64,000 nucleotides of DNA from an uncultured Pelagibacteraceae bacterium (lineage in GTDB: Bacteria; Pseudomonadota; Alphaproteobacteria; Pelagibacterales; Pelagibacteraceae): positions 97,565 through 161,564 of the forward strand of contig CACKBP010000001.1 in NCBI GenBank assembly GCA_902598315.1, read 5' to 3'. The notes beneath the pieces were generated by a model. That model worked only from the letters and a program-made list of their open reading frames with translations, searched no databases and was not told the DNA's origin. The stretch's first letter is position 1. Each line of letters opens with the position of its first letter. Below, piece after piece: positions 21,580 to 45,468 of the stretch. Made by a program: the position numbers and the translations under genes.

Positions 21580-21942
21580 ATGTACGAATTGTTTGCAAAC
21601 CTAACTTTAATTGCACATTTAATTTTTATCTTATTTGTTATTTTTGGTGGATTGCTATTTTTTATTTTTTCAAAAATCATCTACATTCATCTTCCAGCGT
21701 TGTTATGGGGAATTTATATAGAATTTACAAATTCTGTTTGCCCATTAACTTATCTCGAAAATTGGTTTTTGTATAAAGGAGAATTGACAACTTATTCTAA
21801 CGATTTTATTAATAATTATCTTTTTCCAATTATTTACCCTGAGGGCTTAACTGCTGAAATTCAAATATATCTTGGTACATCGCTGATAATTATAAATATT
21901 TTAATTTATGGACTAATGTACAAAAATTTTAAGAAAGAATAA
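21580..21942 (+). CDS. DUF2784-like membrane protein
   Basis: LxxxHxxFIxFVxFGG, NxVCPLTYLEN and C-terminal hydrophobic segment. Confidence 0.7.
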   Translation: MYELFANLTLIAHLIFILFVIFGGLLFFIFSKIIYIHLPALLWGIYIEFTNSVCPLTYLENWFLYKGELTTYSNDFINNYLFPIIYPEGLTAEIQIYLGTSLIIINILIYGLMYKNFKKE

Positions 21943-21945
21943 GGG

Positions 21946-22207
21946 GCGTTCTGTTGCCAGGTGCCCCGGACCCCGTAACTTAATTAAACTAGTTAATTAA
22001 GCTGCAAGTGCAAATTTTTGATTTGCATTTATAAATTAGCCCGTTACGTCGGAACCATCTCGTACGAAAGAACAGCCTTTAGACACCCGTCGATCCTAAT
22101 TCACCCCCGTAAGTTGTAAATGGTGGAGGTGGTGGGTACTGCCCCCACGTCCGTGATGTTTATTACGAAATTCGTTTATCGTCATAGTTGGAAAACCAAC
22201 ACTATTA
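21946..22207 (-). ncRNA. ssrA: transfer-messenger RNA, circularly permuted two-piece type (acceptor piece then coding piece); outer ends approximate
   Basis: Reverse strand: acceptor 3' end ...GTGGGGGCAGTACCCACCACCTCCACCA (22121) precedes 5' GGGGGTGAATTAGGATCGACGGG (22108); acceptor stem GGGGGTG/CACCTCC pairs; tag ORF GCA AAT CAA AAA TTT GCA CTT GCA GCT TAA = ANQKFALAA*. Confidence 0.92.
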
Positions 22208-22247
22208 ATATAAAACTCTTTTGAAGAGATTCAATAATTAATTCAAA

Positions 22248-42872: not shown

Positions 42873-43274
42873 ATGAAAAAAATTTTAGGGCTTTTGCTTG
42901 GACTTACTTTACTGACTGGTTGTGCAGAGTCTTTAGCTCTCTTAGGACCATCCTCCACCGCAGTAACAGGTGGAAATATTGCCCAGTCAGCTTTCTCTTC
43001 TGCAGTTAATTTCGGAGTAAAAAAACAAACCGGAAAAAGCCCGATGGAACATGCAATAGCTTATGCAGAAGAAATAAACCCTCAGAAAAAAAAGGAGCCT
43101 TGTTTATCATTTGCTGAAAAAACCAATTCAGAAATTTGCGCTATTGTGAAAAAGCAATTAAAAATAACAAAATCGAAGATCTTGAATAAATCAAAGGAAA
43201 AATCTATTAAGGATCTTGCTTCATCACTTCAACCTAATATAAATAAAAAATCTAAAATCAAATACCTAGATTAA
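42873..43274 (+). CDS. small lipoprotein, paralog 1 of tandem pair, unknown function
   Basis: Signal peptide with lipobox LLTGC; SD GGGAG upstream; shares ESLALLGP and VKKQTGKxPxEHAIAYAEExNP with next ORF. Confidence 0.8.
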   Translation: MKKILGLLLGLTLLTGCAESLALLGPSSTAVTGGNIAQSAFSSAVNFGVKKQTGKSPMEHAIAYAEEINPQKKKEPCLSFAEKTNSEICAIVKKQLKITKSKILNKSKEKSIKDLASSLQPNINKKSKIKYLD

Positions 43275-43411: not shown

Positions 43412-43819
43412 ATGAAAAAGATATTGCTTTTATTATCATTTATTTTCCTGCTGAACGGTTGCGCTGAATCGTTAGCATTACTTGGCCCGGGTGCCTCTAA
43501 TGGAAGATTTGTTCAATCCAGTATAAATTCAGCGATAAGTTATGGTGTCAAAAAACAAACAGGAAAAACTCCTTTAGAACATGCTATTGCTTATGCAGAA
43601 GAAGTAAATCCTGAGAGAAAAAAAGAAACCTGCATTTCTTCTTTTGAAATAACAAGATCTGAAATTTGCACAATTGTTAAAAAACAAATTAAAAATAAAA
43701 GTAATGCTGTGGTAGAAAAGACTACAGATATTGTGAAAGAATTTCCAAAAGGCAGAATTAAAGAAATATCTAAGATCGAAAAGATAGCAAAAAAATCAAT
43801 TATTTATAATAGAAGATAA
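43412..43819 (+). CDS. small lipoprotein, paralog 2 of tandem pair, unknown function
   Basis: Lipobox LLNGC; same conserved blocks as 42873..43274. Confidence 0.8.
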   Translation: MKKILLLLSFIFLLNGCAESLALLGPGASNGRFVQSSINSAISYGVKKQTGKTPLEHAIAYAEEVNPERKKETCISSFEITRSEICTIVKKQIKNKSNAVVEKTTDIVKEFPKGRIKEISKIEKIAKKSIIYNRR

Positions 43820-43881: not shown

Positions 43882-45174
43882 TTACGCAGCCAAAGCTTGT
43901 TTGATATCTGCAACAATGTCGTCTGGGTGTTCTATACCAATCGATAATCTTACGTAACCTGGTGTAACACCTGCAGCTAACATTTCTTTTTCAGTTAATT
44001 GACTGTGAGTTGTTGTAGCCGGGTGAATTGCTAAACTCCTAGCATCACCAATATTTGCCACGTGGTAAAGCATTTTTAAGTTATCAATAAACTTAGCTCC
44101 TGCCTCTTTTGTTCCTAGATCCATACCTATTAAAGATCCATAACCACCTTGCATATATTTTTTAGCTCTATCTCTAATTTCACCTTGATAATTAGTTGGA
44201 TAGATAACCTTTTTAACTTTTTTGTGACCATCTAAGAAATTTACAACTTTCTCTGCATTACTACAGTGTTGCTTCATTCTTAAAGCTACAGTTTCCAAAC
44301 CTTGAATGATTTGAAAAGCATTGAAAGGACTTAAAGGAGCACCTAAGTCTCTCAATAAAACCACTCTTGCTCTGATGACAAATGGGATATTAGCCCCAGT
44401 TAATTGTGGAACTGCATCTGCCCATACTGCACCATGATAACTTTGATCTGGTTCATTTAATAGAGGTTGTCTTTTTCTATCTTTAATCCAATCAAAATTT
44501 CCACCATCTACAATTATTCCGCCAATTGAAGTACCATGACCACCAATATATTTTGTCAAAGAGTGCATTACTATTGCAGCTCCATGAGCTAAAGGTTTAC
44601 ATATTACTGGCGAGGCTGTGTTATCGATGATTAAAGGAATACCTTTTTTTCTGCCGATATCAGAAACTTCTTTAATTGGAAAAACACGCAGATAAGGATT
44701 TGGAAGAGTCTCACCGTAATAAGCTCTTGTTTTATCATCAGTCACTTTCTCAAAGTTTTTTGGATCTGCGGGATCTGCAAATCTAACTTCGATACCTTGT
44801 TGTCTTAACGTGTTTTTAAATAAGTTAACTGTACCTCCATATAAATCAGTCGAAGCAACAATATTATCTCCAGCTTGCGCTAAGTTTTGAATACACATTG
44901 CTGAAGCTGCTTGGCCTGATCCCACTGCACATGCTGCTACACCGCCTTCAAGCGCTGCAACTCTTTTTTCTAGTACATCTACAGTTGGGTTCATTATACG
45001 TGTGTAAATGTTACCAAATTCTTTTAGACCAAATAAATTTGCAGCATGTTCTGCATTTTTAAATTGGTAAGAAGTTGTTTGATAAATAGGAACTGCTACT
45101 GCTGTTGTAGTAGGATCAGCTCTATAATCACTACCATGTAAGCCAATAGTTTCCGGATGTTTAAAATCAGCCAT
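43882..45174 (-). CDS. metY: O-acetylhomoserine sulfhydrylase/aminocarboxypropyltransferase
   Basis: PLP Cys/Met metabolism family: HSLTKYIGGHGTSIGGIIVDGG, GSGQAASAMCI; SAM riboswitch leader. Confidence 0.95.
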   Translation of the reverse strand: MADFKHPETIGLHGSDYRADPTTTAVAVPIYQTTSYQFKNAEHAANLFGLKEFGNIYTRIMNPTVDVLEKRVAALEGGVAACAVGSGQAASAMCIQNLAQAGDNIVASTDLYGGTVNLFKNTLRQQGIEVRFADPADPKNFEKVTDDKTRAYYGETLPNPYLRVFPIKEVSDIGRKKGIPLIIDNTASPVICKPLAHGAAIVMHSLTKYIGGHGTSIGGIIVDGGNFDWIKDRKRQPLLNEPDQSYHGAVWADAVPQLTGANIPFVIRARVVLLRDLGAPLSPFNAFQIIQGLETVALRMKQHCSNAEKVVNFLDGHKKVKKVIYPTNYQGEIRDRAKKYMQGGYGSLIGMDLGTKEAGAKFIDNLKMLYHVANIGDARSLAIHPATTTHSQLTEKEMLAAGVTPGYVRLSIGIEHPDDIVADIKQALAA

Positions 45175-45214
45175 TGATTTTCCCCCTTATTGTTTCTCTA
45201 ATCGTTTCGTTCAT
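45167..45214 (-). CDS. candidate 15-codon leader ORF (MNETIRETIRGKING*) overlapping the metY start
   Basis: SD GGAG 4 nt before ATG (45214-45212); stop TGA (45169-45167) lies within ATGGCTGA of metY. Confidence 0.4.
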   Translation of the reverse strand: MNETIRETIRGKING

Positions 45215-45264
45215 TTTTCTCCGTCTTTCTGGAGAAGTATGAACGAAATTTAATTCAGTTCATC

Positions 45265-45325
45265 TTCTCCTTTTTAGTACTTCGGCATATGCCAGGTGTA
45301 CAATATGGTTCAAATACCTGGTTTT
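45265..45325 (-). promoter_or_regulatory. SAM-V riboswitch aptamer
   Basis: Reverse strand ACCAGGTATTTGAACCATATTGTACACCTGGCATATGCCGAAGTACTAAAAAGGAG; CCAGG/CCTGG stem, terminal CTAAAAAGGAG containing an SD; upstream of metY. Confidence 0.82.
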
Positions 45326-45340
45326 ATTTTAGATTGTTCC

Positions 45341-45369
45341 AAAAAAAAACCACCGGCTAAAGCGGTGGT
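45341..45369 (-). terminator. intrinsic terminator of the SAM-II expression platform
   Basis: Reverse strand ACCACCG-CTTTAGC-CGGTGGT followed by TTTTTTT. Confidence 0.88.
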
Positions 45370-45382
45370 CGTATGACTTAAA

Positions 45383-45432
45383 CGCTTTAGCTGGATTTAT
45401 TTAGCGCCCGCAAGTTGTTTTAACTCGGCGCT
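45383..45432 (-). promoter_or_regulatory. SAM-II riboswitch aptamer
   Basis: Reverse strand AGCGCCGAGTTAAAACAACTTGCGGGCGCTAAATAAATCCAGCTAAAGCG resembles the SAM-II core; GCTAAAGCG complementary to CGCTTTAGC in the terminator. Confidence 0.88.
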
Positions 45433-45439
45433 TTCATTG

Positions 45440-45468
45440 ATTATCAATTACAAATAAGCTGATGTCAA
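45440..45468 (-). promoter_or_regulatory. metY promoter, sigma70-type
   Basis: TTGACA (45468-45463), 17-nt spacer, GATAAT (45445-45440); -35 overlaps the stop codon of the upstream VOC gene. Confidence 0.8.

Follow-up and report, generated by a model that had tools for sequence, protein, structure and literature searches.

A SAM-V riboswitch with a predicted relayed translational output upstream of metY in a SAR11 genome

The metY leader of this Pelagibacteraceae contig is best read, with a probability of roughly 70%, as a SAM-V riboswitch that acts on translation through a relay: the Shine-Dalgarno sequence carried by the aptamer (SD1) would serve as an anti-anti-SD and not as the ribosome-binding site of the gene. 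Computation finds two hairpins of near-equal energy (H1 and H2), constraint on the three arms that form them, a leader ORF that overlaps the start of metY, and the exclusion of SD1 as the SD of metY. From these we infer the toggling of H1 and H2 by SAM in vivo, the folding order and the dependence of metY on leader-ORF translation. Without SAM, an anti-SD strand (the anti-strand) would pair with SD1 once transcribed, forming H1, and the downstream SD2 and AUG2 would emerge free. Ribosomes would then translate the leader ORF, end at a UGA lying over the metY AUG and continue into metY. Once SAM is bound, helix P2a of the aptamer would hold the GG of SD1 and leave the anti-strand for SD2 and AUG2; the resulting closed H2 would turn off both the leader ORF and metY.

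Architecture of the leader

All features of the leader lie on the minus strand; positions are those of the window, the whole stretch of 64,000 nucleotides analysed. In the direction of transcription the order is a promoter-like site, a SAM-II-like element, a terminator, SAM-V, SD1, the anti-strand, SD2/AUG2, the leader ORF and metY. The regulated gene, metY (43882-45174), encodes O-acetylhomoserine sulfhydrylase (PF01053, 394 bits; TIGR01326, 574.8 bits). The sigma-70-like promoter (TTGACA-17-GATAAT, 45440-45468) matches 11 of 12 positions in a consensus scan. The putative SAM-II-like aptamer (45383-45431) was recognised by visual comparison with the SAM-II motif as the upstream half of a SAM-II/SAM-V tandem, an arrangement already known (PMC9481103). 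The Rfam SAM-II model finds no match in the window even at E 1, nor does it match in four related loci, an HTCC1062-like tandem included. An intrinsic terminator, located by a terminator scan and by its sequence, lies between the SAM-II-like element and SAM-V (about 45341-45370). Its CGCTTTAGC is complementary to GCTAAAGCG in the SAM-II-like element, and the latter may act as an antiterminator.

The predicted SAM-V aptamer (RF01826, 45264-45328) scores 72.7 bits against a curated gathering score of 41, and the covariance-model match covers the whole aptamer (positions 1-66). Its P2a dinucleotide is CC, which could pair with the GG of SD1; in the published SAM-V structure the P2a helix would hold this GG (PMC6061858). 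The sequences quoted for the metY leader in the original prediction are all exact, and each sits in its place on the minus strand.

SAM-V loci in SAR11 genomes

A total of 237 SAM-V loci, that of the window included, were drawn from SAR11 whole genomes, and a gene was assigned to 233 of them; the sample is non-random, and its fractions do not represent natural frequencies. In direct leaders the GGAG of the aptamer is the SD of the gene, 8-13 nt from the start codon, while relay leaders resemble that of the window. Among the loci with an assigned gene, metY is preceded by 109 direct and 69 relay leaders, the latter reducing to 62 distinct sequences. Relay leaders also precede bhmT (25 by script, 26 with the addition of L188, which the script misread owing to an upstream in-frame ATG) and a MetE-like gene (3, the identity of the gene resting on weak NCBIfam matches), so that about 29 with different arm sequences occur beyond metY. 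Leaders of mmuM are direct only. One locus, L050, is a duplicate of L165 whose assignment to osmC was wrong. Since both forms, direct and relay, occur upstream of the same gene within a single genus, a direct comparison of the two is possible.

On the metY tree, relay status requires at least two changes: 68 relay leaders fall together, with weak support, and L007 is separate. Since this tree implies no more than one or two origins of the metY relay, the 62 leaders do not constitute 62 independent tests. All 97 relay leaders tallied have CC as the P2a dinucleotide, and 107 of the 109 direct metY leaders have CU; ancestry is partly responsible for this contrast, and CC also occurs in direct leaders of bhmT.

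Two loci stand apart from the usual gene contexts. In L054 (1501-1660) SAM-V and an SD1/anti-strand hairpin are followed by none of the usual genes, the next ORF being on the opposite strand. In L235 a weak SAM-V-like match (34.3 bits, under the cut-off) occurs before a secreted rhodanese-like reading frame.

SD1 and its distance from metY

SD1 (45270-45267) is located 96 nt upstream of the metY start, and a TAA lies in the metY frame 15 nt upstream of that start. Because of this stop, SD1 is not the SD of metY itself. The published SAM-V model, in which SAM hides an SD1 that serves the downstream gene as its ribosome-binding site, is backed by a structure (PMC6061858) and suits the direct leaders with their closely spaced GGAG. 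However, it would leave the constraint on the anti-strand unexplained, and the other relay leaders checked have a similar barrier, with in-frame stops separating SD1 from the gene. Barring processing of the transcript, simple occlusion is therefore ruled out for metY in this leader, and we regard it as very unlikely; the original claim that this leader does more than occlude an SD is borne out by the stop codon.

It had also been noted that SD1 runs into a Met-Asn-stop mini-ORF. This is present in the window, but only one other of the 62 leaders shares it, so that a role for the mini-ORF is unsupported. A longer reading of the same region would make SD1 a real SD: without SAM, an ORF1 starting at ATG1 would be translated through the anti-strand, melting H2, with re-initiation at AUG2 (AUGA overlap) and then at metY. 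Such a relay of ribosomes would give regulation of the same sign, and the ORF1 UGA stop overlaps AUG2 in 42 of the 62 distinct leaders. However, ORF1 has only two codons in the window, and the frame from ATG1 to AUG2 departs from the majority in 16 of the 62 leaders, compared with none for the leader ORF that opens at AUG2. ORF1 was rejected as conserved coding sequence on these grounds. The spacing between SD1 and ATG1 (3 nt) is also poor, and H1 would hide SD1. Translation of ORF1 is thus an improbable basis for the switch, and SD1 is better read as a decoy that acts by pairing.

Two mutually exclusive hairpins

The anti-strand (TTTCGTTCATACTTCTCC, 45231-45248; core CGTTCATACTTCTCC, 45245-45231) can form either the 3' arm of H1 or the 5' arm of H2. 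Hairpin H1 (45231-45270, -19.9 kcal/mol), the proposed ON state, consists of 13 bp and a 3-bp loop extension. Its 5' arm, GGAGAAGATGAAC (45258-45270), identified by folding, is the proposed decoy SD or anti-anti-SD and is embedded in the aptamer. Hairpin H2 (45205-45248, -19.9 kcal/mol), the proposed OFF state, encloses SD2 and AUG2. The SD2 and AUG2 arm (GGAGAAAAATGAACGAAA, 45205-45222), recognised from folding and from tree-based change counts, contains the string GGAGAAAAATGAACG (45222-45208), in which SD2 begins at 45222 and AUG2 at 45214. The original prediction that the anti-strand can pair either way stands, as both stems are present, but H2 is longer than the 6 + 7 bp then described: it has 6 + 10 bp flanking a 2x2 mismatch (UUUCGUUCAU/AUGAACGAAA), the extension arising from pairing of UUUC upstream of the anti-strand with the GAAA that follows AUGAAC.

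About 15 positions of the anti-strand are common to both hairpins, making them mutually exclusive. One strand is thus complementary both to an upstream element and to an SD, with exclusive pairings, as in an anti-SD/anti-anti-SD system. None of 2000 dinucleotide shuffles of the spacer was as stable as H1 or H2 (means of -6.6 and -6.1). In folds of the window the unpaired fraction of SD2 is 0-2% as long as H2 is formed, and blocking the SD2 arm restores H1. Folding was by the nearest-neighbour model, the energies of which ignore the pseudoknot.

As strong stems containing GC that follow a riboswitch, H1 and H2 might also suggest transcription termination. Neither is followed by a U-run, however, and the only terminator found by the scan (45370-45348) lies upstream of SAM-V, making such a function hardly conceivable for either stem. 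Opposite-strand Rfam matches that cover the hairpin all fall below gathering scores.

The balance between the hairpins is maintained across the 62 distinct metY leaders, where H1 averages -18.7 and H2 -18.8, a difference of -0.08 +/- 0.96 kcal/mol. When the GG of SD1 is blocked, a computational stand-in for SAM that concerns energies only, the mean for H1 becomes -11.2 and H2 is the more stable structure in 62 of 62. Before bhmT the picture depends on the group. In the g1 group, H2 falls between free and GG-blocked H1 in 13 of 15 leaders. In g4, H1 is about -25 to -27 and H2 -10 to -13; with H1 so much stronger, any switching there would need kinetic control, not thermodynamics alone. A general rule that H2 lies between the two states of H1 is broken by L113, L149, L165, L167, L169 and L187, in a check that left out L199 and L200.

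Constraint and covariation

Changes per site were counted for the metY relay leaders on a tree derived from flanking sequence. The counts are low for the SD1 arm (0.31), the core of the anti-strand (0.80) and the SD2 arm (1.00) in comparison with the loops (5.1 and 7.0) and the remainder of the leader ORF (4.2), and the most variable position of the anti-strand is its unpaired one. As the anti-strand is neither an SD nor coding sequence for metY, its constraint points to pairing.

The arms are nearly invariant within metY leaders, where there are no compensatory double changes, only one-sided and mostly wobble-compatible ones, and evidence of covariation consequently rests on comparison between families. 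In 11 of 12 such comparisons with the window, 5-10 H1 pairs are changed on both sides; in L153, a near relative of the window, one pair is. The H1 duplex has z scores of -3.2 to -5.9 in 13 of 13 representatives. For H2 the scores are -7.0 in the window, -4.0 in L153, -3.1 in L165, -3.0 in L007 and -2.4 in both L026 and L169; in duplex shuffles H2 is not significant in the remaining seven representatives (L146, L167, L187, L188, L196, L199 and L200). With seven of 13 weak or absent, H2 was rejected as a general feature of relay leaders. It is clear in metY and in the g1 MetE-like gene, and is probably also present in g1 bhmT; several of the other leaders before bhmT and the MetE-like gene give it weak statistics. 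The conservation proposed for both stems holds for H1, with two-sided differences between families, and for H2 within the metY class, where the changes are wobble-compatible. In L196, L199 and L200 about 130-140 nt separate SAM-V from bhmT, and the SD1/anti-strand hairpin has another sequence.

The leader ORF and the start of metY

The leader ORF (MNETIRETIRGKING*, 45167-45214) comprises 15 codons from AUG2, and its stop overlaps the start of metY (ATGGCTGA). It remains open, with an unchanged register, in 62 of 62 distinct leaders, and the AUGNNUGA overlap is likewise present in all of them without a frameshift, in agreement with the overlap as originally described. Two leader ORFs carry a 3-nt deletion, and the offset of the UGA over the metY start is constant. 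An SD, a stop overlapping the gene start and a conserved frame together mark it as a uORF. All 69 relay leaders have T as the last base of metY codon 2 and GAT as codon 3, while direct leaders differ; the positions that form the TGA are invariant even as metY codon 2 varies.

The peptide itself appears free to vary. Its changes are 85 nonsynonymous and 39 synonymous, and purifying selection on it is unsupported. Among these 124 changes no stop arose in the leader ORF where about 2.5 were expected, which is weak evidence. A peptide attenuator was also rejected, as the peptide is neither conserved nor methionine-rich, most examples having only the start Met.

The gene has its own SD, GGGGG (45182-45186), which precedes the metY AUG by 7 nt and for which the models predict an unpaired fraction of about 40-50%. 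This could allow metY to start independently, the hairpins controlling only the leader ORF or the stability of the mRNA, for instance through exposure of an RNase site. Against this stand the conserved stop/start overlap with its invariant TGA and a hairpin (AAAATCA-ATGGC-TGATTTT, 45163-45181), recognised by eye and in window folds, that holds the metY AUG in its loop. In the bhmT relay leaders, moreover, SD2 is directly at the gene start, so that the output there is the gene itself. Independent initiation at metY is on this evidence unlikely. Translational coupling through the leader ORF would fit the start hairpin, the partly paired GGGGG and the conserved overlap, although hairpin and stop codon constrain the same bases, so that the two are inseparable here. 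Coupling may be incomplete, since in the models the GGGGG is partly accessible.

Comparison with known systems

The metY leader of the window shares its aptamer, ligand class, gene, translational mode and OFF response to SAM with the direct-type Pelagibacter metY SAM-V (RF01826), but here the GGAG is remote from the gene and pairs with the anti-strand. SAM-V has been published as a direct control of access to the ribosome-binding site, in studies of short aptamer RNAs and of the HTCC1062 bhmT tandem (PMC11508383, PMC9481103), the layout of which matches that of the window. The HTCC1062 bhmT leader is represented by L165, which matches the antisense oligo sites of the 2024 study of this tandem. 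It has an SD1/anti-strand hairpin, and bhmT begins 73 nt after SD1 (positions 160 for SD1 and 233 for the bhmT AUG in the numbering of that study). BhmT rises under sulfur limitation in HTCC1062 (PMC5069961); as its leader is of the relay type, the relay logic has the right sign. Affinities for SAM measured by ITC were 0.5 and 4.4 uM for the bhmT and metY aptamers (PMC6061858), and values of 120 and 15 uM are quoted in PMC5069961. A competing anti-strand might contribute to this difference between studies, if the longer RNAs contained it.

In the btuB platform of E. coli (PMC11162775) the ON state likewise depends on pairing of an anti-SD with an anti-anti-SD, which frees the SD. In the window, by comparison, the anti-anti-SD is an SD-like sequence inside the SAM-V consensus and a true SD in sister leaders. 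The ppe2 B12 riboswitch of M. tuberculosis (PMC11260477) similarly acts on a uORF that ends over the start of the gene, and translation continues into the gene by termination-reinitiation. This system differs in ligand and aptamer, its overlap is AUGA rather than AUGNNUGA, and its coupling is experimental where ours is predicted. In the published descriptions of SAM-V and of the bhmT tandem covered here, Poiata 2009 excepted, no mention of the downstream relay was found; within that scope the combination of an anti-SD/anti-anti-SD relay with a coupled uORF on SAM-V is new, each part being known elsewhere.

On balance we favour the broader view that these leaders represent a second, widespread SAR11 expression platform for SAM-V. 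A decoy SD would relay to a distant SD through different arms before metY, bhmT and the MetE-like gene; for metY the switch would be poised within about 1 kcal/mol, and a coupled leader ORF would carry its signal to the gene. The bhmT leader of HTCC1062 on which published work was done would belong to this platform, and its direct-occlusion model would need revision. Many SAR11 leaders, the studied bhmT one among them, would then depart from the published model, in which SAM-V is a minimal switch covering the SD of the gene. A clamp of 2 bp on the decoy would choose between two strong hairpins, and a streamlined genome would have made a two-step riboswitch from the direct-occlusion type by re-using an SD as an anti-anti-SD. 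Such a compact and nearly isoenergetic natural switch would lend itself to tests of kinetic control.

Other features of the window

Two adjoining, similar small ORFs resembling lipoproteins (GCAESLALLGP...) occur on the plus strand at 42873-43274 and 43412-43819. A permuted alphaproteobacterial tmRNA is located on the minus strand at 21939-22238.
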